Shown: piece after piece, positions 3,128 through 17,804 of the stretch
Numbering within the stretch: the stretch's first letter is position 1
Layout of the letters: each line of letters starts with the position of its first letter
Assembly (NCBI GenBank): GCA_000421045.1
Contig: ATWC01000002.1
Span: 124,001 to 188,000 of the forward strand
Direction: 5' to 3'
Origin: Lachnospiraceae bacterium NK4A179
GTDB lineage: Bacteria > Bacillota > Clostridia > Lachnospirales > Lachnospiraceae
DNA: 64,000 nucleotides
Translations under genes and position numbers: made by a program
Notes under the pieces: generated by a model
Databases searched by the model: none
Told to the model about the DNA's origin: nothing
The model's input: the letters and a program-made list of their open reading frames with translations, nothing else

Positions 3128-5362
3128 TTATACAACAGGGATCACTGTGTTGCATCCGGCCTTCAATCCCACCGTTCCCATCCCTTCTATGGTAATCGTT
3201 CTGTCTCTTAACGAGTACAGTTCAAGACTCGTAAGCTTTCTGTTTTCCCAACTGAAATCGGCTGTTATACCTCCTTCTGCCCCAAGTCCTTTTACCTTGC
3301 CACTTTCCCATTCTACAGGAAGCGCAGGAAGGAATGAGACAGTAACTGCATCGCTCTGCATTAGCATCTGTGCTATAGCCGCTGTGGTCCCGAAGTTTCC
3401 ATCAATCTGGAAAGGCGGATGGTTATCGAACATATTAGGAAGGACTGACGATTCAAAATACTTCCTGATACCCTCCCATGCTTTGGGTGCATTTCTCAGT
3501 CTAGCCCACATATTTATTATCCACGCTCTGCTCCAACCTGTATGGCCGCCTCCGTTTTCGAGCCTTCTGTTCAATGTTGCTTCAGCAGCTTTTTTCAGTC
3601 TGTCATCATAAAACTTTATCTGTCTCCCCGGATAAAGGGCATAAAGATGCGATATGTGCCTGTGGCCTATCTCTGTCTCTTCATAGGCATCTGCCCATTC
3701 CTGAATGGTACCGTTTGATTCAATCTTTATGACAGGAAGTCTGTCTCTTAATTCTGTATAACGTCTCTTCTCTTCTTCAGAAAGTTTTCCGCATTCAAGC
3801 ATTCCATTTAAGAGCTCTCTCAGTATCTGACTGTCCATTGATGCGCCCTGACAGAGATTTCCGGTTTCACCATTATCCAGTCTGTATGTATTTTCAGGAG
3901 AAGATGTCGGAGATACTACAAGCTCTCCATTTTCATTTTCTATCATTGTCTCCTCAAAGAATCTGACCGCATCCTTTGCATAAGGCAAATACTCCTCCAG
4001 AAACGCTTCATCCTGAGTATATCTGTAATGCTCAAAGATATGGGTACAAAGCCACACAGCGCCCATCTGCCAGTATGTGGAAGAGGCAAGTGTATCCTGA
4101 GGTGCACAGTCTCCCCAGAGATCGGTATTGTGATGAGCCATCCAGCCGCCTGCTCCGTACATTTCTTCAGCCACTTTCTTTCCGTGAGGATACATACGTT
4201 TGATATGCTCAAATAATGGCATATGCATCTCTGACAGACCGCAGGTCTCTGCGGGCCAGTAATTCATCTCGGTGTTTATATTTATAGTGAACTTGCTGTC
4301 CCATGCCGGTACAAAGCTTTCATTCCATATGCCCTGCAGGTTTGCAGGAAGGCTTCCTTTTCTGCTTGAACATGTAAGAAGATACCTTCCGAATTCAAAT
4401 GAAAGATTCACAAGGCCCTTGTCTTCTTCCCCATTCTTAACTCTTTCCAGCCGTTCATCTACAGATACTTCACTCTTATCCTCACAGTCAATTTCAAGCG
4501 TACACCTATTCATTATCTCATTGAAATCTTTCAGGTGTCTTTCACGCAGCCTGTCATATCCGGCCTCTTTGCCCCTATCCAGAAGCATCATTGTTTCCTT
4601 ATAAGGATCATCATTATAAAAAGATGTTTCACCGGCTGCGATGATCACGCAGTCATCACTGCACGAAAGCGTTCTGCCCGTGATCCCCATAGAGCCCTTT
4701 ATCGCTCTTACAGCAAAGCAATATTTCACTCCATCAGGCCCCGCCTGTCCCTGCATGCAAAGTGTATTCTTATCGGGCCTGCTCAGATCCTGCATATAAA
4801 CACCGCGTTCAAGGATCAGCGAAACAGGAAGTCCGGTACTCTTTATTACCATGAGCTTATCAGGAGCAGAAATAAAACTCTCTCTTTCACACTTCGTATT
4901 GTTTATCGTATACGAAACTCTGTGTATACCATCTGTCAGATCAAGACATCGTTCATAACCATCACAGGGAAGCATGTCATATATCTGCGGACTCCATCTG
5001 TCTCGAAGCCCGAACATGCATACATTTTTATCGCTTTTAGGGATAAGGAACATATCGCATAAGGGTTCATAGTGACACTGAAAATCCGGAACTGCTGCCA
5101 TGGAAAGATCGGCGAGAGCTTCCGCCTCACTTATCCTGCCTTCCTTTATCAGTTCACGGATCTTGGGAATATTCTCTTTGGCATCAGGATTAACACGATC
5201 TTTAAATCCGCCATACCACAGACTGTCCAGATTGAGCTGAAACCGGTCTGCGATATTCCCGCCAAAGCACATAGCTCCCATAAAACCGTTTCCAAGAGGG
5301 AGTGCCTCATTCCAGTTCCCGGCCGGTTTTCTGTACCATAATCTGTTGGTATTATTGCTCAT
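3128..5362 (-). CDS. Glycoside hydrolase family 95 alpha-L-fucosidase (or galactosidase)
   Basis: A 744-residue enzyme of GH95, whose members remove alpha-1,2-L-fucose (some alpha-L-galactose) by inversion. The N-terminal beta domain opens with the family hallmark RLWYRKPAGNWNEALPLGNG. The (alpha/alpha)6 barrel carries INTEMNYWPAETCGLSE (about residue 360, the Asn region that activates water), HHNTDLWGDCAPQDTL, the acid-Glu region SPTSSPENTY (about 488) and the Asp loop FQIDGNFGTTAA (about 652). All four key regions of the characterised bifidobacterial enzyme therefore have counterparts, by family alignment from memory. No signal peptide is seen, so it probably acts on imported oligosaccharides. 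Start: ATG 5362 with AAGGA upstream. Targets could be plant xyloglucan or host glycan fucose. Confidence 0.9.
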   Translation of the reverse strand: MSNNTNRLWYRKPAGNWNEALPLGNGFMGAMCFGGNIADRFQLNLDSLWYGGFKDRVNPDAKENIPKIRELIKEGRISEAEALADLSMAAVPDFQCHYEPLCDMFLIPKSDKNVCMFGLRDRWSPQIYDMLPCDGYERCLDLTDGIHRVSYTINNTKCERESFISAPDKLMVIKSTGLPVSLILERGVYMQDLSRPDKNTLCMQGQAGPDGVKYCFAVRAIKGSMGITGRTLSCSDDCVIIAAGETSFYNDDPYKETMMLLDRGKEAGYDRLRERHLKDFNEIMNRCTLEIDCEDKSEVSVDERLERVKNGEEDKGLVNLSFEFGRYLLTCSSRKGSLPANLQGIWNESFVPAWDSKFTININTEMNYWPAETCGLSEMHMPLFEHIKRMYPHGKKVAEEMYGAGGWMAHHNTDLWGDCAPQDTLASSTYWQMGAVWLCTHIFEHYRYTQDEAFLEEYLPYAKDAVRFFEETMIENENGELVVSPTSSPENTYRLDNGETGNLCQGASMDSQILRELLNGMLECGKLSEEEKRRYTELRDRLPVIKIESNGTIQEWADAYEETEIGHRHISHLYALYPGRQIKFYDDRLKKAAEATLNRRLENGGGHTGWSRAWIINMWARLRNAPKAWEGIRKYFESSVLPNMFDNHPPFQIDGNFGTTAAIAQMLMQSDAVTVSFLPALPVEWESGKVKGLGAEGGITADFSWENRKLTSLELYSLRDRTITIEGMGTVGLKAGCNTVIPVV

Positions 5363-5558: not shown

Positions 5559-7721
5559 ATGGATATTCTTGCCACAAGCGGCGATATAAATATCATACTG
5601 ATAGCGTTAGCTTTTTTCATCGTAATCGTATCCATGTTTGCGATGAAACCCGAAAGAGCTACCCGCGTCACTCACTGGACAATGCTTTTGTCGGCAATGG
5701 GCGGCATCATGATATACACCATGGCTTATGCCTCCTCTGCCACAAGCACCGTTGACCTGACAAGCGGCATATTAAGAGCTGTTACATCTGCCTTCTTTAT
5801 GTTCGTAGGCAGGGAAGGCTATTCAAGCGTCATCAGCAGCTGGCCTTATTTTGCGGAAAACGCATGGATCCGTCTTGTATTCTGGCTTATCCATCTTATG
5901 GCTTTCTACGTTTCCCTTACAACCGTATTTAATGCTGTAGGAAAGAGCGCCATCCGAAATCTCCGTGTTTTCCAGTACCGCTTCACCGGAAATGATTATC
6001 TTATCCTTTTCGGAAAATCCGACAAAATGAGACTTGATTCTCCCGCCGCAGGCAAGGCACTTAAGAACGGCATACATGTTGTCCTTGTAGGGCAGGATTC
6101 TTCCGGTCTCACCATCGCCGACAGTCTCGGTGCGATATACCGAAATGTAAGCGAAATGGATAATGAAGGAAAATGGCTCAAGAAACTCGGAATAGGAAAA
6201 CGATCAAATATAAGCATCATCTGCGGTGAGGCCACTGATAATGATATAGAGAATTTTCTTGAGAAGTTCGTAAAAGGCGGTAATGCTCTTGGTCTGATCT
6301 CCGGCCAGATACAGGCTACACTTATCTGCAGGGATGAATATATCTTCTTTAACAGAAATCTTGAACTCGGTGACTTAAGCTCCGGAGGCGGACAGCTCCA
6401 CATGGAATTGAAAACACCTGCATCAATGTCTGCCGAAAGAATGCAGAATCTTATCCCCTTATGGGATATATATGATTTCAGATCCGAGAAGAAATGCACC
6501 GTACTTATAATCGGTTTTTCAACTCTCGGCCAGAAAACACTTCAGACAATGATACGAAACGGCGGATTCTTAAAGGACCAGATCGAATTCATAGTTGTTG
6601 ACAGGAACCTGAAATCATACAGTGCTTTCAACAGACAGTATGCGAGTATGATGGAAAACTATAATATACAGTGCTACAGCTACAGTACAGATTCAGAGGA
6701 ATTCCTCGATCTGCTTGATTCCTGTGCCGGAACGCTGCGCTACGCTGCCGTCTGCGAAAATTCAAGTTTCAACGGAGAAGACAAAGTTATGCTTCTTCAT
6801 CGTTATGCACTTGCCAATGAAGATAATATGCCGGACAGCTTTGTGATCATGCGCTGCAATCGTGAGATAGTCGGCTGTAACGTTCTGGAAAAACCTACTC
6901 CCGAGGACCATTACAAACTGGTACGTCAGGAAACATGTCCTGTCATCGATATTGCCGAACTGATTTCCGGAAACGGCAGTCTTTCCGCGCGCAAGGTTAA
7001 TGATGCCTATTACGCAGAAGAAGCCAAACGTATGTATCCGACCGATCCTGCGGGATGTGAAAACTATCTGAAGGAAATGTGGTACGGAACAAATCTCATA
7101 GACAGGTCCTCCTGCACCGCCACCGCACAGTTCATGCCTGCCTATCTCAAACTGGCCGGTGTGGGATCTTACAGTGAGCTTTACAACTATCTTGAGGATG
7201 AAGAAAATGCAGAAGCCTTCGGACGCATAGAGCATGATCGCTGGATGGCATTTGAATCCTCAATAGGTGTAAAAGCCATGGAAGAGGAAGACTTTAAAGA
7301 ACGTATAAATGTAATGGAAGATCATTTCAACACCCTTATACCCAAACTCAAACTCCTTGATAAGGAAAAGAAGGCTCTAAATTCGGATGTCGATACTCTC
7401 TTCGCAGAATATAAAACAGCTCAGAGACACAGCCGCAAACAGATCCCTTTCTTCGGACTTGGCGGTGTACATGTATGCATGACAGACTGGAATAATCTTG
7501 ACCATCTGTGGGATATTTACAAAACAGCAGATTACCATTTCAGAGAAGCAAATTATTACAGAGAGCATATCAAATGGCAGATGAACGATGAAGAAGGCTC
7601 CGAACCCGTTAAGCCCACTCTTGAGGGCGCACGCGGATTTAAGCAGATGGATATAAACAATATAAAAGATATGAGCCGCTACTATGCCGGCCAGGAAACA
7701 GGAAAAAAAGCCGATGAATGA
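5559..7721 (+). CDS. Membrane protein with Rossmann (TrkA-N-like) and split RyR-like regions; probable partner of the K+ channel
   Basis: A 720-residue protein that I do not recognise as a named family. Residues 8-28, 38-57 and 102-125 are clear membrane helices, with a weaker hydrophobic stretch at 70-84 where a pore helix could sit. The loop after it reads MFVGREGYSS, not a canonical filter. The cytoplasmic part has a first alpha/beta unit (NDYLILFGKSDK, about 145-260) and a second with a dinucleotide-type loop (VLIIGFSTLGQKTL, 315-328, then IEFIVVDRN). The C-terminal region carries EHDRWMAF (558-565) and HVCMTDWNNL (638-647). These align with EHDRWLKL and HNCMVPYDRL in the RyR domain of the next protein, but about 65 residues are inserted between them. 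Start: ATG with GAGAGG upstream. The 3' end overlaps the next gene. Inferred role: regulatory or non-conducting subunit of the same channel. Confidence 0.75.
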   Translation: MDILATSGDINIILIALAFFIVIVSMFAMKPERATRVTHWTMLLSAMGGIMIYTMAYASSATSTVDLTSGILRAVTSAFFMFVGREGYSSVISSWPYFAENAWIRLVFWLIHLMAFYVSLTTVFNAVGKSAIRNLRVFQYRFTGNDYLILFGKSDKMRLDSPAAGKALKNGIHVVLVGQDSSGLTIADSLGAIYRNVSEMDNEGKWLKKLGIGKRSNISIICGEATDNDIENFLEKFVKGGNALGLISGQIQATLICRDEYIFFNRNLELGDLSSGGGQLHMELKTPASMSAERMQNLIPLWDIYDFRSEKKCTVLIIGFSTLGQKTLQTMIRNGGFLKDQIEFIVVDRNLKSYSAFNRQYASMMENYNIQCYSYSTDSEEFLDLLDSCAGTLRYAAVCENSSFNGEDKVMLLHRYALANEDNMPDSFVIMRCNREIVGCNVLEKPTPEDHYKLVRQETCPVIDIAELISGNGSLSARKVNDAYYAEEAKRMYPTDPAGCENYLKEMWYGTNLIDRSSCTATAQFMPAYLKLAGVGSYSELYNYLEDEENAEAFGRIEHDRWMAFESSIGVKAMEEEDFKERINVMEDHFNTLIPKLKLLDKEKKALNSDVDTLFAEYKTAQRHSRKQIPFFGLGGVHVCMTDWNNLDHLWDIYKTADYHFREANYYREHIKWQMNDEEGSEPVKPTLEGARGFKQMDINNIKDMSRYYAGQETGKKADE

Positions 7722-9336
7722 TAAAAAAACGATCAAAAAAATGCTGATAGTGCCGATTCTGGCTGCAGTATATCTGTTGCTTGCATGGCTTCTTCTTGTC
7801 GCAGAAAAGAACGGTAACGGAACCATTAAGACATGGTCTGATGCACTGTGGTATACCTTTGTCACCATGACAACAGTCGGATATGGCGATATGTACCCTG
7901 TTACTCCGTGCGGACGCGTGATCGGTTTCATCTTCATAATGATGAGTATGGGGGCTTTGGCAGCATTATTCTTCTTTATAGTACGCGTAGTACTCAGTGA
8001 GGCATTGATATACCTGCAGATAAGGCTTGTTAAGAATAAACCCTGGCATATCTTTTTAAATGACAACGATGAATCACGCGAACTCGCTGAAGGCATCTCC
8101 CGTGAATCCGAAAACAACAGAGCGATCTGTATATTCACAGGTGTTACTGATGATACAGGCTATGGACACAGATCGCTGCGCACTGCTCTTTCAGCAGATA
8201 AAATACTTGAGTTAGGAAGAGATATCAAAGGCATATATCTTGCCGGCGGCGAAGGAAAAGTCAACATTCACACTGCTCTGTCACTTAAAGAAACCATTCT
8301 CAAGACAGGGCATGATGATGCCTTAGACATACCTGTGTATTGTGACACAGGTGATCTTGATTTTCCCGAAAACGGAAATAACAAATTTTTCAATATGAGC
8401 AGTATGATGGCACGTAAATACTGGCAGGAACATCTTTTAAAACCGGAAGAGACATGTGTAGTTCTTATCGGACTTGGCCGGAACGGATCCGCTCTTCTCA
8501 CGCAGGGACTTCTTGTAAACGCATGTGGTATTGAAAAACACGTTGAATGGCATATATTCGGGAACTCTGCAGACTTCAAAGGAAAGCACAGATTTCTGGA
8601 TCAGGTATTTGCCATAGACGAAAACAGCACGGAAAAAGACAGCATATTCTTTGACGGAAATGACTGGAGCACAGATGCCCCTCTTATTTGCGACAAGGCA
8701 GATCGCATCATCCTCTGCATGGATTCCGATGAAGAAAATCTTAAAGTACTTTCAGACATGGAAAAATACTATTCCATTAACTGCAATATCGATGTACAGT
8801 TTTCGTCTGACAATATGTGTGCAGTTTCGGGCGAACAGCTCCAAAGCCATATAACAGCATTTGGGTTCCGCAAAGATCTGTACATTCCCGAACTGGTGAT
8901 GCGAAAGGAACTCGACCGTATCGCAAGACGTATGAACGAAATATACTGTGAAGAAAGCGGCGGCGGATGCGACTGGAATGAGCTCTCAGAATTTATCAAA
9001 ACCTCAAACATCGCCTCTGCCGATCATATAAGCACCAAAATAGCGATCCTTACCGGAGACTATGACAACTGCGGTGTAACAGATGAGAACTGTCAGAAAG
9101 CTTATAGCGCTTATCTTGAAGAAATAAAAAAGAATCCTGATGCCGCTGAACGATTTGAACGTATAGAACACGACAGATGGCTTAAGCTCTATGCAATGTA
9201 TAACTGGAGATATGCCGATAAGCGCAATGACTCTCTGCGACTCCACAACTGCATGGTGCCTTATGACAGACTTACTGCTGATGAAAGAAGAAAGGATGAT
9301 TACGCCTGGGAACTGATCGGAAGGATTGCAAAATAA
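7714..9336 (+). CDS. Two-helix potassium channel with Rossmann cytoplasmic part and C-terminal RyR domain
   Basis: A 540-residue membrane protein. Helix 1 (about 10-30), a pore loop with the K+ selectivity filter TVGYGD (54-59) and helix 2 (about 68-95) make a KcsA/MthK-like pore module. A large cytoplasmic region follows. It has an alpha/beta unit (about 110-215) and a second unit with the nucleotide loop LIGLGRNGSA (251-260), as in RCK/TrkA-N domains. The last 60 residues read as a RyR domain (PF02026 type): IEHDRW, NWRY, then LHNCMVPYDRL and a charged helix. The ATG at 7714 (ATGA, 8-base overlap with the upstream stop) is preferred to 7684, since AGGA lies about 10 bases ahead. The overlap suggests coupled translation and a joint complex. 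The ligand of the RyR domain is unknown; nucleotide gating is inference. Confidence 0.85.
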   Translation: MNDKKTIKKMLIVPILAAVYLLLAWLLLVAEKNGNGTIKTWSDALWYTFVTMTTVGYGDMYPVTPCGRVIGFIFIMMSMGALAALFFFIVRVVLSEALIYLQIRLVKNKPWHIFLNDNDESRELAEGISRESENNRAICIFTGVTDDTGYGHRSLRTALSADKILELGRDIKGIYLAGGEGKVNIHTALSLKETILKTGHDDALDIPVYCDTGDLDFPENGNNKFFNMSSMMARKYWQEHLLKPEETCVVLIGLGRNGSALLTQGLLVNACGIEKHVEWHIFGNSADFKGKHRFLDQVFAIDENSTEKDSIFFDGNDWSTDAPLICDKADRIILCMDSDEENLKVLSDMEKYYSINCNIDVQFSSDNMCAVSGEQLQSHITAFGFRKDLYIPELVMRKELDRIARRMNEIYCEESGGGCDWNELSEFIKTSNIASADHISTKIAILTGDYDNCGVTDENCQKAYSAYLEEIKKNPDAAERFERIEHDRWLKLYAMYNWRYADKRNDSLRLHNCMVPYDRLTADERRKDDYAWELIGRIAK

Positions 9337-9347
9337 ACTTTAACCGA

Positions 9348-10259
9348 TCATATAACAAGAACTATTTTCAGCAGATCATTCTTTAATCCGGCATGCACGG
9401 ATCCGCCAAGTTTTTCCGTTAAAAGCCTGACCACAGCAAGCCCTAACCCTGTGCTTCCATCATGTCTCGAACGATCCCCTGTGTAGAAACGTTCAAAAAG
9501 GAGATCCGGATCCAATTCTGTTCCGCTTTTTACTGAATTGCTTATGACAAGTCTTATATGGTCCGGGCCGCCTTCTTCAATCGTATCAAGTTCTATTTTC
9601 AGGATACCTGACGAATACCTGACTGCATTTGTAAAAAGGTTCTGAAGTATCCTTTCAAGCATCCCCCTGTCAGTCTCTATAAAAACAGACTTCTCCGGAA
9701 TCTTGACTTCCGGTTCGATTTTCCTCTCTTCCAGCGCCGGAGCAAAATCAGCAAGATAGTCAAAAATCATATTGGAAAGATTGATCTTTTCAGGATCCGG
9801 ATTATCTCCACCTGAATCAAGTACCGAAAGATCATAGAATGAATCAACAAGTTCCTTCATTCTTACAGCCTTGGATGATATAACCTTAAGTCTTTCTCTC
9901 TGATCATCAGGCATAACAGACTTTTCAAGGATCTGTATATGTCCGAGGATAACGGTAAGAGGAGTTCTCAGATCATGAGAAATATTGGCAACAGAGTCCT
10001 TGAGATAATCTTCCTGTTTTTCGGATTCCGCAACGATTCCCCGCTCTCTTTCAATGTATCGGTTCATTTCACCGGCAAGCATTTCAAGATCCCTGTCCAG
10101 AAGAGATATATCGAGAACCTTATCCGTCTTACCTTCAGCAAGAAGAGTTATCTGAGACGAAATGTTTCGCAACTGTTTTTTCAGTCCGAAATATCTTATC
10201 AGTATCATTATCAATGATACTGACAGTATTCCTGTAATTAAGAACAAAATCTTATCCAA
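9348..10259 (-). CDS. Sensor histidine kinase of the peptide-antibiotic ABC system
   Basis: A 303-residue kinase. One N-terminal membrane helix (about 3-23) has almost no extracellular part, so the sensor is probably the membrane or the linked transporter rather than an outside domain. A short HAMP-like linker leads to HisKA with the phosphorylated His95 in NISHDLRTPL. The ATPase domain has an N-box (LQNLFTNAVRYSS) and a G2 box (STGLGLAVV). The start is a TTG, supported by AGGA 7 bases upstream. It is last in an ATPase-permease-permease-kinase operon, 24 bases after the second permease. The order matches CprABCK-type lantibiotic resistance systems of clostridia. The likely partner is the regulator at 12891-13583. 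Confidence 0.88.
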   Translation of the reverse strand: MDKILFLITGILSVSLIMILIRYFGLKKQLRNISSQITLLAEGKTDKVLDISLLDRDLEMLAGEMNRYIERERGIVAESEKQEDYLKDSVANISHDLRTPLTVILGHIQILEKSVMPDDQRERLKVISSKAVRMKELVDSFYDLSVLDSGGDNPDPEKINLSNMIFDYLADFAPALEERKIEPEVKIPEKSVFIETDRGMLERILQNLFTNAVRYSSGILKIELDTIEEGGPDHIRLVISNSVKSGTELDPDLLFERFYTGDRSRHDGSTGLGLAVVRLLTEKLGGSVHAGLKNDLLKIVLVI

Positions 10260-13616: not shown

Positions 13617-14969
13617 TCAGTTCCAGCATTTAACCACTTTTCCGAACTTTCCGAAATTGATGATCGCTCTTAATCCTTCATCTATCATTACTGCCACAAA
13701 CACTCCCAATATTCCGAGCTTGAACACATAAACCATGATCCATGCACAGGTTACCACCAATACCGTTCCGAAAGCCTGAGTATAAAGCATCCATTTGGTA
13801 TCACCGCTGCCTTTGATCCCGGAACCACAGATGATATTTGCTGATTTACCGAACAGATTAACACAAACAAGTATAAGGAGATAACCACAGGTTTCTATAA
13901 TGTATGTATCTTTTGTAAATAATGAAAGGATCCTTTCCGGGTTTATAAAGCATATTATCAGCATCACAAAAGCTACCAATGCAGAAAGGCCATAGGCACT
14001 CTTAACAACCTGACTGTACTGATCACGGTCGTTCTTTCCCTTTGCTTCTCCGGTCAGGATCATAGTTGCCGTTCCGAAGGAAGCAACTACAACCACAACC
14101 AATATCTCTACGCTGAATACCATCCCATAGATACCGGCAGCCAGATCGTTTATAGAATTCAGTATCCTCATTATCACCAGATTTCCGGCATTCCAGGCTA
14201 ATTCCTCCATAGCACAGTTTACCCCCATCCCCAATGAGGATAAATAAGGTTTCGCGGATGCATGGATCGTCTGTTTTAATGACGGACGTGTTATGAGTTT
14301 TTCTGACCTGATAAATACCAGGCAGGATAACAGTCCCAGGTACTCGGCGATAGTCGTTGCAATGGCCGCCCCCTCTATCCCAAGAGCAGGAAGACCAAAA
14401 TGACCGAATATCAAAGCATAATCCAAAACAATATTAATACCTGACCTGAGTATTCCAAACACGAGCAAAGGCATCGTGTAATTCGATGTCTGCATGATCA
14501 CACTCATAGAGCCTTCCAGACCTATAAGCAGAATGATAGGCATAAAATATTTCAGATATGCCATACAGTACGGCATAAGCGTTTCAGACACACCAAGCAA
14601 CGCAAATATCTTTTCACCAAATAAAAGCCAGCATAAAAAAATTATAAGACAGGGCAGATTATTCCATTTGATCATCGATGACGTATACTCTTTGACTTTA
14701 TCCATATTACCGGCACCGACATTCTGACTGATAAGGATTGATGCACCTGCAGTTATAGCAAAGCAAAAGGACATACTGGTCCACATAGGAGAATTCACAT
14801 TTCCTATCGCGCTCATATAAAGAGGATCGACCTGTCCCAGAAACATGCGGTCAATGATCATCTGAACCTGTGAAATAGCATTTGAAAGTATAAGCGGAAA
14901 TGCTATTTTCATAATGCTGTTTATGTATCTTTCTTTTTTTTCTTTATTCTTCTCTTCTACTGCTTTCAT
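13617..14969 (-). CDS. MATE-family multidrug efflux protein
   Basis: A 450-residue membrane protein with about 12 helices in two similar halves. It belongs to the MATE family, which exports drugs or metabolites in exchange for Na+ or H+. Typical parts are the first-helix region AFPLILSNAISQVQMIIDRM, the QNVGAG loop after helix 2 and the mirrored GEAKGKND loop in the second half. The substrate is unknown. It is first in a likely two-gene transcript with the response regulator, so it may belong to the same drug-response unit. The start ATG 14969 has only a weak ribosome site. Confidence 0.88.
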   Translation of the reverse strand: MKAVEEKNKEKKERYINSIMKIAFPLILSNAISQVQMIIDRMFLGQVDPLYMSAIGNVNSPMWTSMSFCFAITAGASILISQNVGAGNMDKVKEYTSSMIKWNNLPCLIIFLCWLLFGEKIFALLGVSETLMPYCMAYLKYFMPIILLIGLEGSMSVIMQTSNYTMPLLVFGILRSGINIVLDYALIFGHFGLPALGIEGAAIATTIAEYLGLLSCLVFIRSEKLITRPSLKQTIHASAKPYLSSLGMGVNCAMEELAWNAGNLVIMRILNSINDLAAGIYGMVFSVEILVVVVVASFGTATMILTGEAKGKNDRDQYSQVVKSAYGLSALVAFVMLIICFINPERILSLFTKDTYIIETCGYLLILVCVNLFGKSANIICGSGIKGSGDTKWMLYTQAFGTVLVVTCAWIMVYVFKLGILGVFVAVMIDEGLRAIINFGKFGKVVKCWN

Positions 14970-15025
14970 TATTCCGGTCTCAATCTAATGTAGTAATTAT
15001 TGTCGCGTTATGGGTAAACAGGGCT

Positions 15026-15053
15026 ATTATACCATTTTCTGTTATCGTTTTAA
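15026..15053 (-). promoter_or_regulatory. Promoter of the MATE gene
   Basis: On the minus strand the extended -10 TGGTATAAT (-10 at 15026-15031) has a weak TTAAAA -35 (15048-15053) 16 bp upstream. It overlaps the -35 region of the divergent promoter, so the two may compete for RNA polymerase. Confidence 0.55.
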
Positions 15054-15070
15054 CGTATGAGATGTATAAT
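15042..15070 (+). promoter_or_regulatory. Promoter of the zinc-ribbon membrane protein gene
   Basis: TATAAT at 15065-15070 with a modest TTATCG -35 at 15042-15047, 17 bp apart. It lies about 40 bases ahead of the ATG at 15108, which has AAAGGATG as ribosome site. Confidence 0.5.
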
Positions 15071-15107
15071 AGTTAATGCAATAGATTTTTGAAAGGATGT
15101 ATCGATC

Positions 15108-16559
15108 ATGGGGGAGAGAACAGCCATAAGTCTGAATTGCCCGTCCTGTGCGGGACGTGTCAGCTACGATCCGGAATTACAAAAGATCGTATGTGACAGT
15201 TGCAGCCAGACTTTCGAGGTAAAGGATTTCATCAATCAATCAAGAGAAGTGGCCAAGATGCGGCCCGTTTCATGGGATAATGTCAAAGGTCCTGAGATCG
15301 ACCGCAGTGCCATGCATGTCTATACCTGTATGAACTGTGGTGCGCAGGTGCTTTCAGAAGGCCTTCTGGCCACTGCTCACTGCATGTACTGCAATTCCGA
15401 ATTTGTCCTTACCGATAAATTTGAAGATGTGATGATGCCGGAAGGTATCATACCTTTTGAGCAGACGGTTGAATATGCCAGAATGACAATGCGACGGCTG
15501 GCAAGCGAAAAGACCGGTATTCCCGAAAAAGATTTCAAGGAAGAATGGCTCACAAATATGCAGGGCTGTTATATCCCCTGCTGGCTTTTTGACTGCAGCA
15601 CTTCAGTATGCGGTGTTTATTTTGGAACTGAAGTAAGGCAGGGCTTTGACATGCGTTACGGCAACACCACACTGGAAACCGAATATACCATAACCCGCAT
15701 AGGAACCATACAGGTAAAGAATATCCCGGCCAGAGCTGATTCAAGACTCAAGGAAACCACTATTATGAAGCTGTTTCCTTTTTATCTGAAGGATATGCAG
15801 CCGTTCAATCCGGCTCTTCTTACAGGTTACAGTGCATCACTTTATGATATTTCACCCGAGGTCGAAAAAGAAAAAATAGAAAAAGACATTGAACTACAGG
15901 CAACTACAGAACTCTCTTCAACCATTCATCATGGCAACCTCAAAACCGTTATGTCTTTTTGCAATATCAATTCCGCACAATACGGATACTGCCTGCTTCC
16001 CATATGGATCTGCAGATTCAATTACATGGGATATAATTACAAATTCTGCATGAATGGCCAGACCGGCGAAGCAATGATAGAATTGCCCCCCGGAGCCGCT
16101 GAAGCAATAAGAAAAAAACGTCAGCAGAAAAACAAACTGTTAGACGGTTTTATCGCCATCCCCATCGCCATACTTATACCCCTGGCCCTGCTCTTTATTG
16201 ATTCATCACCACGTGTGAGCATGTTCGGCTTCTTTGGAAGCACCTTCGGAACTGTAGCGGTTCTTATCGTCACATTTATTATGCGAAAGATCAGATACAA
16301 AGGTTATCTGAGCGAAAGAGAGATCCAGCACGACGAAAAACTTCTGAAGAGATACGGGAAGACTTTGGATGATTTCTCGCCCTTTGCTGACCCTGAAGGA
16401 CTGAACGAAGGAAGCAATGCAGGCGTACACGGCAGTTCAGACAGATTAAAACTTGAAGTGGCAACAGATGAACTTTACGGAACAAGAACCTATGCCTTCG
16501 TACCTGACGGAAGCGGTAATTCATCAAGGCAGGTTGTAAATTTCCGGGAAGGAAAGTAG
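15108..16559 (+). CDS. Double zinc-ribbon membrane protein of unknown function
   Basis: A 483-residue protein. Two zinc ribbons are evident: CPSC...CDSC (residues about 11-33) and CMNC...CMYC (about 76-98), each with paired CxxC knuckles. A long middle domain follows that I cannot name. Two membrane helices (about 345-365 and 372-392) come late, then a charged tail of about 90 residues. Similar proteins are common in Lachnospiraceae and are often mislabelled as helicase or TFIIB-like because of the ribbons; no helicase motif is present. It stands alone, divergent from the MATE gene and convergent with the MFS gene. A metal- or redox-sensing membrane role is only a guess. Confidence 0.7.
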   Translation: MGERTAISLNCPSCAGRVSYDPELQKIVCDSCSQTFEVKDFINQSREVAKMRPVSWDNVKGPEIDRSAMHVYTCMNCGAQVLSEGLLATAHCMYCNSEFVLTDKFEDVMMPEGIIPFEQTVEYARMTMRRLASEKTGIPEKDFKEEWLTNMQGCYIPCWLFDCSTSVCGVYFGTEVRQGFDMRYGNTTLETEYTITRIGTIQVKNIPARADSRLKETTIMKLFPFYLKDMQPFNPALLTGYSASLYDISPEVEKEKIEKDIELQATTELSSTIHHGNLKTVMSFCNINSAQYGYCLLPIWICRFNYMGYNYKFCMNGQTGEAMIELPPGAAEAIRKKRQQKNKLLDGFIAIPIAILIPLALLFIDSSPRVSMFGFFGSTFGTVAVLIVTFIMRKIRYKGYLSEREIQHDEKLLKRYGKTLDDFSPFADPEGLNEGSNAGVHGSSDRLKLEVATDELYGTRTYAFVPDGSGNSSRQVVNFREGK

Positions 16560-16568
16560 CTTTACAAT

Positions 16569-17804
16569 TTAATCTTTCTCTTCTCCGGTCTCAAGATTTT
16601 TTATCTTCTTTGAAAACAGAGACATCAGCGAAGTGATAATGAGCATCACTCCCGCGATCGATATTACAAATGCCGATCCCCTGCCAACAGAAATATTCAT
16701 GATATACGCTGACCTGTCAGCAAATACACCCGATAAGGCATATGCCGGAATATAACCTAACTGTGATAAAAATCCAATGAAGCCCCAAACTCTGCCCTGA
16801 AGCGCATCCGGGATATTGGTTCTTGCAAGATAATCCAGAGACGAATTGGCTATAGGAAGCATGGCAAAGAACATAAAGCCAAACAGGCATATCATATATA
16901 TATTTTCTTTCAGTGAAAAACATATCATAAAAACTCCGGCCATGGCAAGCGATAAACCCAGTACCGATGCATGACTTTTCTTTATCCCTATTACGCCTAT
17001 GATAAGAGCCGTAACCAGCATTCCCAATGCGCATACAGTCTCGGCAAATCCCAGAGTTTTAGAATCGGCAAAGGAAAGGATCATGGGTTCACACAATACC
17101 TGGATCACACCTAGAAATATCGACATACAGGAAGAAATGATGATCAGCTGCAGCACACCTTTCCGCGTATATACTGCTCTCCAGCCTTCCTTAAGACTCT
17201 CCATAAATCCCGGTCTTTTATCACCTCTGCTATCAGATAGTCCACGTTTTACAACAGCTGTAGCGATGATAGTCACGAAAAAAGTACAGATGTCTATCAC
17301 AAGAAGCAATTTGATCTCATATGCAGCCAACAGAAGTCCTGCTATCACCGGAGATATCAGATATCTTGCACTCCCGGCAAGCGAAACCAGGCCACTAGCC
17401 TTTGTGAATTCCTCTTTTGTCAAAAGATCCGTTATCGTAGATCTGTAGGACGGTTCCAAAAGAGATGAAAAAACAGAACTTACAAATACCCCCAGGCATA
17501 TCTGCCAGACTGCACATTCTCCGTTCATCATGCATATCAGTATATAAAGAACACCGATCGCAGACAGTCCGTCACCTGTCATCATAAGGATCCTTCTGTC
17601 AAACATATCAGCAAGGACCCCTGCCGGAACAGAAAGAATAAGTGTAGGGATAAATCCCAGAAGTGTAACGATAGCCATTGTTGCAGCGCTTCCTGTTTTT
17701 TGAAAAACATAGACTCCAAGTCCAAAAGCTGTAAGTCCTCCCCCGATCTGTGAGATGAGATTTCCGATCCATAAGATCAGGAACTTTGAATAACCTTTCT
17801 TCAT
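16569..17804 (-). CDS. MFS transporter (MFS_3 / enterobactin-exporter-like)
   Basis: A 411-residue protein with about 12 membrane helices. The family loop between helices 2 and 3 is visible as GVLADMFDRRILM, and its half-repeat around ARTNIPDALQGRVWG resembles MFS_3 exporters (macrolide or siderophore efflux). The ribosome site AAGGAGGT is near perfect, 10 bases before the ATG. Repeats resembling TetR-type operators lie upstream, so drug-inducible repression is plausible, though no TetR gene is near. The substrate cannot be read from sequence. Confidence 0.85.
   Translation of the reverse strand: MKKGYSKFLILWIGNLISQIGGGLTAFGLGVYVFQKTGSAATMAIVTLLGFIPTLILSVPAGVLADMFDRRILMMTGDGLSAIGVLYILICMMNGECAVWQICLGVFVSSVFSSLLEPSYRSTITDLLTKEEFTKASGLVSLAGSARYLISPVIAGLLLAAYEIKLLLVIDICTFFVTIIATAVVKRGLSDSRGDKRPGFMESLKEGWRAVYTRKGVLQLIIISSCMSIFLGVIQVLCEPMILSFADSKTLGFAETVCALGMLVTALIIGVIGIKKSHASVLGLSLAMAGVFMICFSLKENIYMICLFGFMFFAMLPIANSSLDYLARTNIPDALQGRVWGFIGFLSQLGYIPAYALSGVFADRSAYIMNISVGRGSAFVISIAGVMLIITSLMSLFSKKIKNLETGEEKD

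Follow-up and report, generated by a model that had tools for sequence, protein, structure and literature searches.

GsuK, MthK, BK/Slo1 and CASTOR/DMI1 are K+ channels with RCK domains. Animal ryanodine receptors use the RyR domain for the binding of small nucleotides, and the products of TIR enzymes in other systems are ADP-ribose-type nucleotides. The preprint PMC13232231 implicates cyclic ADP-ribose (cADPR) in the control of animal ryanodine receptors and describes RyR-family phage proteins, RyDEP and sponge-type proteins among them, which bind or cleave 2'cADPR and 3'cADPR. Here we describe a gene pair, A and B, located in a 64,000-nucleotide stretch of the genome of the gut bacterium Lachnospiraceae bacterium NK4A179 (contig ATWC01000002.1, positions 124,001 to 188,000, hereafter the window), in which a K+ channel subunit of the RCK type bears an RyR domain and the relatives of which are often found next to TIR genes.

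Gene B (7714..9336 of the window, plus strand) codes for a K+ channel subunit of 540 amino acids (aa) with tandem RCK-like domains and an RyR domain. The pore domain (transmembrane (TM) helices TM1 and TM2 with a pore helix between them in the predicted model; residues 3-94, 7720..7995) matches Ion_trans_2 of Pfam with an E value of 2.5e-15, and the selectivity filter TVGYGD is encoded at 7873..7890; its GYGD part is kept in all 51 aligned B proteins. After the inner helix come RCK-like domains 1 and 2 (residues 111-226 and 248-383; 8044..8862), which match GsuK, CASTOR, KtrA and Slo1, the mean confidence of the model (predicted local distance difference test, single chain) being 91. The C-terminal helical region (8905..9333) contains the RyR domain: residues 479-528 (9148-9297) match PF02026 with an E value of 2.1e-6 (28.3 bits, cut-off 27.4), and residues 421-540 match solved RyR domains (6uhi, E 6.2e-16). 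A profile of the 51 B proteins, compared with the PDB sequences, finds both K+ channels (8.8e-21) and RyR R12 domains (2.2e-20). The channel nature of gene B and its RyR domain are secure. An earlier note on this DNA, made from the letters alone, had read a TVGYGD K+ pore and a C-terminal RyR domain in this protein, and both are confirmed, the latter by the PF02026 profile search that the note had proposed. Its RCK/TrkA-N-like nucleotide region holds in part: the predicted folds are RCK-like in both proteins, but Pfam does not call TrkA-N in gene B and scores it below the threshold in gene A (12.2 bits, cut-off 23.8). Gene B shares with GsuK and the other RCK channels a two-TM K+ pore with TVGYGD and two RCK-like domains, and differs from them in the extra C-terminal RyR domain, in a conserved second subunit which has no filter, and in the TIR neighbours of its relatives. 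The RyR domain is homologous to the R12 domains of the animal ryanodine receptors and likewise sits on an ion channel, but no other part of the receptor is found, the pore is of the K+ and not the Ca2+ type, and an RCK ring is predicted.

Gene A (5559..7721, plus strand, 720 aa) codes for the putative partner subunit, with TM helices, two Rossmann domains and a C-terminal RyR-like domain. In its membrane region (residues 7-143, 5577..5987, delimited by predicted helices and motif counts) a pore-helix-like segment at residues 64-81 is followed by MFVGRE in place of TVGYGD, so that the K+ selectivity filter is absent. On superposition of the model with GsuK this part looks like a degenerate pore. 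The Rossmann (RCK-like) domains 1 and 2 (residues 146-285 and 313-461, 5994..6941) are assigned from the predicted fold, and together with the RyR-like part they make gene A a paralog of gene B (hhalign E 1.4e-30), as expected from the earlier note, which had described the first protein as a look-alike with the same cytoplasmic plan. No Pfam family matches the RyR-like end of gene A (6972..7718, with H559, W562, H638 and D698); it is called RyR-like because of the profile-profile homology with B and because its H-A-C-L motif weakly matches 6uhi (E 0.015), and by this call the domain is present in both proteins. A Foldseek search with the model of gene A gave no match at an E value of 0.001 or better, a search which barely probes the membrane part and the C-terminal region.

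With the ATG at 7714 as the start of gene B, the two open reading frames (ORFs) overlap by 8 bases (7714..7721), as the earlier note had stated. This ATG is preceded by an AGGA at a distance of 10 bases, and three of four gene B homologs start within a few residues of the equivalent position (the start of the fourth was chosen by us). An alternative ATG upstream, at 7684, would give 550 aa; all residue numbers refer to the 540-aa version. Relatives of gene A occur in 7 of 299 genomes of the family and, with an A profile at 1e-8, in 25 of 392 genomes of the order, the window's genome included in both counts. An alignment-based scan of GTDB with gene A gave 235 relatives, and the analysis used the 80 best. 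Their record titles are mostly those of uncultured Lachnospiraceae, Oscillospiraceae, Clostridia, Solobacterium and Mogibacterium, many from the ruminant gut. No relative of gene A was found in the scan of viral contigs, none of gene B in a single-sequence scan of genome contigs, and no paralog of gene A in the window's genome by BLAST; this genome holds a single RyR match. After removal of hits below 100 bits and clustering of A at 80% identity, 84 loci remained of 106, some of which had been duplicated across two collections; the window is not among the 84. Gene B adjoins gene A in 60 of the 84 loci (39/59 when clustered at 60%). The side-by-side arrangement is thus conserved, and neither of the findings which the earlier note had named as contrary to its proposal, a missing PF02026 match and homologs lying apart, came about.

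In two of the first six homologs a TIR gene follows immediately on the A-B module, and the loci were therefore surveyed for TIR genes with a profile seeded from these two, which yielded 79 TIR ORFs. A TIR gene is the direct neighbour of the module in 33/84 loci (22/59 at 60% clustering), codirectional and with a gap below 200 bases in 25/84, and it occurs somewhere within the flanks in 42/84. The occurrence falls steeply with gene rank, from 18/80, 8/63, 7/55 and 1/51 at downstream ranks 1-4 to 0/91 at ranks 5-8, and from 15/76, 2/67, 0/62 and 0/55 at upstream ranks 1-4 to 0/127 at ranks 5-8 (0/218 gene positions for both sides pooled). Among twelve TIR ORFs scanned in A and related RyR loci, the one of the window's genome counted apart, eleven exceed the Pfam cut-off for TIR_2; the remaining one is a short twin with 19.7 bits (cut-off 28).

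In a test independent of flank length, with the distances compared by hand, a PF13676 match lies within 5 kb of A in 14 of 27 loci of 26 genomes, where 0.33 would be expected (Poisson P 1.5e-18, kinship ignored). The weak A hits G626, G469 and G098, in whose loci TIR ORFs occur too, were left out. By contrast, a comparison by hand of the 102 TrkA_N matches of these genomes, some of which are paired domains from a single gene, shows none with a PF13676 match at a distance of 5 kb or less. In five genomes (G058, G529, G556, G571 and G402) the sole PF13676 match adjoins A. Every one of the 26 A-carrying genomes has a PF13676 match, in comparison with 20 of 30 genomes without an A match (Fisher P 8e-4); these controls were hand-picked from search listings and mostly complete, and one, G261, holds a different RyR gene. 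That the neighbourhood reflects mere chance or the abundance of TIR genes in these bacteria, which are indeed common in the controls, is hardly credible in view of the observed 14/27, the empty ranks 5-8 and the 0/102 of the TrkA_N control, and this account was set aside. The A modules, with or without B, are genomically tied to TIR genes, a link reported here for the first time.

The residues of the ligand site were compared with those of RyDEP, a small soluble phage counter-defence protein, for which PMC13232231 gives H75, W78, H100 and D117 as ADP-ribose (ADPR) contacts and H75 and D117 as the catalytic dyad. Mycobacterium phage Aegeus gp81 (L173:2794-3204, annotated as hypothetical) matches PDB 35tm_A, which we take to be RyDEP, with an E value of 6.8e-77, and its gene sits between the genes of a phosphoribosyl pyrophosphate transferase and a nicotinate ribosyltransferase, an NAD-synthesis context which resembles that of RyDEP. 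By its sequence, gp81 is a RyDEP-type RyR protein. It aligns with gene B gap-free from H75 to D117, with H75 and W78 on H486 and W489 of gene B (9169-9171 and 9178-9180). THPD and KDAVW of gp81 fall on LHNC and KDDYAW of gene B, and H100 and D117 therefore correspond to H511 (9244-9246) and D528 (9295-9297). H486, W489 and H511 are kept in 51/51 B proteins and D528 in 50/51, and none of these residues was used in the selection of the B proteins. In gene A the equivalent H638 is kept in 59/59 proteins and D698 in 58/59, neither of them used in the scan; the EHxxW motif of A is uninformative on conservation, since the relatives of gene A were scanned for with it. Gene B thus has the H, W, H and D ligand residues at the spacing of RyDEP (PMC13232231), fused into a 540-aa bacterial channel. 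The nucleotide ligand supposed in the earlier note gains support from the phage RyR domains of PMC13232231 and from the TIR neighbours described here.

Both residues of the RyDEP dyad are present in gene B, and the RyR domains could accordingly be enzymes which hydrolyse the TIR product, the membrane part localising or self-limiting the signal and the channel closing as the ligand is consumed. We consider this very unlikely: hydrolysis has no need of a conserved K+ pore, and in PMC13232231 six of eight phage homologs bound signals and none of these six cleaved them despite the conservation.

The TIR proteins of the loci fall into a long and a short form. At the position which we take, from the TIR literature, to be that of the catalytic Glu, 58 of 59 long TIR proteins, including the one of the window's genome, have Glu, and the remaining one, a fragment, has a gap. 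Of the 21 short ones, 18 have Arg and 3 have Glu at this position. The 18 Arg-bearing proteins (~270-300 aa) directly precede another TIR and therefore look like catalytically dead twins. Such twin genes are seen in L131, where a short one with Arg (13941-14783) is followed by one which keeps the Glu (14789-16819), and in 17 other locus entries, two of which (L048 and L073) are one place. Beside the twins, in L131 (11441-13951) and 14 other loci, a gene is found for a probably secreted protein of ~880 aa (cluster c5), mostly between the twin TIR genes and the channel genes; the one member scanned has no Pfam match. By hydropathy, 8 of 10 TIR proteins examined have a TM helix. Since the N side of this helix is the more basic one in 7 of the 8, the TIR part probably faces the cell interior, with the beta-propeller, TPR or Sel1 part on the outer side of the membrane.

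A survey of RyR genes beyond A and B shows PF02026 in 10 of 398 genomes from the phylum, the window's among them. Of the other nine, six have a TIR ORF close to the RyR gene within the stretches retrieved, which supports the TIR link independently of A. The RyR gene abuts a TIR-LRR gene in G921 and G1005 (one genus); a TIR gene adjoins that of a 95-aa RyR protein in G937, lies between two RyR genes in G756, and is one gene away from the RyR gene in G261 and from the gene of an RyR-TrkA_N membrane protein in G729. At this G729 locus there are also genes for a TIR-NPHP3_N-TPR protein and for a SLATT-like protein with a DUF4231 match below the threshold. No TIR gene is seen near the RyR gene in G841, in G960 and at the second RyR locus of G207; G841 and G960 hold DUF4062 proteins.

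Two RyR-TrkA_N membrane proteins (L163:8333-10129 and L165:6840-8630) are candidates for another class of RyR effectors. Beside them lie SLATT-like proteins that match DUF4231 below the threshold, together with TIR or DUF4062 proteins which carry NPHP3_N and TPR; these TIR- or DUF4062-STAND-like and SLATT/DUF4231 neighbours are taken for genes of the conflict or immune type. The gene of a stand-alone 95-aa bacterial RyR protein (L162:8295-8579) immediately precedes one for a TIR protein with a beta-helix part. The 95-aa RyR protein is matched by 126 phage records, the best of the phage matches being two unannotated human-gut phage contigs. One further protein (L166:916-3507) unites RelA_SpoT, a sub-threshold LSDAT (SLOG) domain and RyR, with a TIR-profile ORF nearby.

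The best reading of these observations, and in our judgement a fairly probable one, is a K+ channel gated by ADP-ribose-type nucleotides made by TIR proteins. A and B would be two subunits of one ligand-gated K+ channel, B supplying the K+ pore; both would contribute tandem RCK-like domains to a ring, on top of which the RyR domains would sit. The TIR enzyme, for which a membrane anchor is predicted in most of the small set examined, would consume NAD+ (nicotinamide adenine dinucleotide) to form an ADP-ribose-type nucleotide, e.g. 2'cADPR or 3'cADPR. Binding of this nucleotide in the RyR pocket would move the RCK ring and with it alter the opening of the pore, and a TIR signal would in this way be turned into a change of K+ flux and membrane potential. 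The outcome may be growth arrest or a response to infection, i.e. defence, a possibility that we regard as tentative; it would otherwise be another kind of stress or surface signalling. On osmotic control, a further role suggested in the earlier note, none of the present findings has a bearing.

Alternatively, the pair could form a housekeeping channel of the GsuK/MthK type, in which the RCK domains respond to NAD+/ADP or ions; the RyR domain would then be a structural cap or a plain adenine-nucleotide sensor, and the TIR neighbours would be incidental. The RCK domains may indeed be the nucleotide sensor themselves, by analogy with GsuK. We nevertheless regard a housekeeping role as unlikely, because the TIR adjacency is far above chance and is seen with none of the other TrkA_N matches in the same genomes, and because the ligand residues of the RyR domain are kept across the 51 B proteins.

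Further points weigh against a TIR-gated channel, in the window itself and among the relatives. The window operon has no adjoining TIR gene, and the only PF13676 gene of its genome lies ~9.6 kb before A, on the opposite strand, outside the window and with several genes between. It codes for a protein of 963 aa with weak beta-propeller matches, in which the Glu is kept; like the L131 TIR, it matches ThsB_TIR of Pfam. The chance of one gene lying so near in a genome of 3.2 Mb is ~0.7%, so the position is suggestive only, and this TIR protein might serve the window channel. In 42/84 loci no TIR gene is seen in the flanks (the length of which varies), and some TIR neighbours sit on the opposite strand. 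A and TIR occur without B in 13/84 loci; the K+ pore is therefore not always part of the module. The distant RyR proteins of L162, L167 and L163 have T, T and N at the H100 position, and the full ligand set is therefore not kept there. In respect to defence, no PADLOC family matches A or B at E up to 1. For the 60%-clustered loci, the neighbours at ranks 1-2 (75 of 155 listed) were compared with those at rank 5 or beyond (75 of 116 listed), proteins above 900 aa being left out. The near set matches ten PADLOC families with one member each (RecD, mad3 and PDC models; at most 10/75) and the far set four (mad3, SspA, DndA and QatD; at most 5/75), which is no clear enrichment of defence genes beside the module.

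This lack of enrichment would suit a surface or envelope signalling device rather than an immune one, in which one-TM TIR proteins would sense the envelope by an outside beta-propeller, TPR or Sel1 part, with K+ flux as the output. The TM helices with a basic N side and the putatively secreted c5 protein (15 loci) next to the TIR pair point in the same direction. Against it stand the distant RyR-TrkA_N relatives, with their TIR- or DUF4062-STAND-like and sub-threshold SLATT/DUF4231 neighbours, and the 126 phage records with RyR matches. Such a device, which overlaps in mechanism with the TIR-gated channel and differs from it in role, appears somewhat unlikely.

The A-B pair of the window stands by itself and is flanked by opposite-strand genes on either side: a GH95 gene (3128-5362, minus strand, by Pfam), divergent from the pair, and a histidine-kinase-like ORF (9348-10259, minus strand, judged from its translation), convergent with it. 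Promoter-like and terminator-like sites are in no excess over shuffled sequence.

The TIR-gated channel resembles Thoeris (the TIR protein ThsB with ThsA) in that, among the relatives, TIR genes which keep the Glu lie beside a candidate receptor of an ADPR signal. It differs in that no ThsA match is found (PADLOC, E up to 1), that the effector would be a K+ channel, and that the window has no adjoining TIR gene. Term searches of the accessible text of two papers on conflict systems (PMC7159879 and PMC8195603) found no passage on bacterial RyR domains, and none of the passages seen of PMC7016017 treats them. We found no paper which joins RyR domains, TIR genes and K+ channels, in a body of partly accessible literature with few subscription journals.

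To our knowledge, the site of cADPR on the animal ryanodine receptors is unsettled. A bacterial channel with kept cADPR-contact residues and TIR-adjacent relatives makes the relation of cADPR to the RyR domain testable in a simple protein. We propose, with slightly less than even confidence, an ion-channel form of TIR signalling, in which cyclic ADP-ribose-type messengers would open a heteromeric K+ channel via RyR-type domains. The cADPR-RyR signalling of animals would thus have a bacterial counterpart, and TIR immunity would gain a new class of effectors. If this is true, a K+ channel would be added to the effectors of TIR signalling, RyR domains would serve bacteria as receptors for TIR products in general, and phage RyR proteins might face a wider range of host systems.

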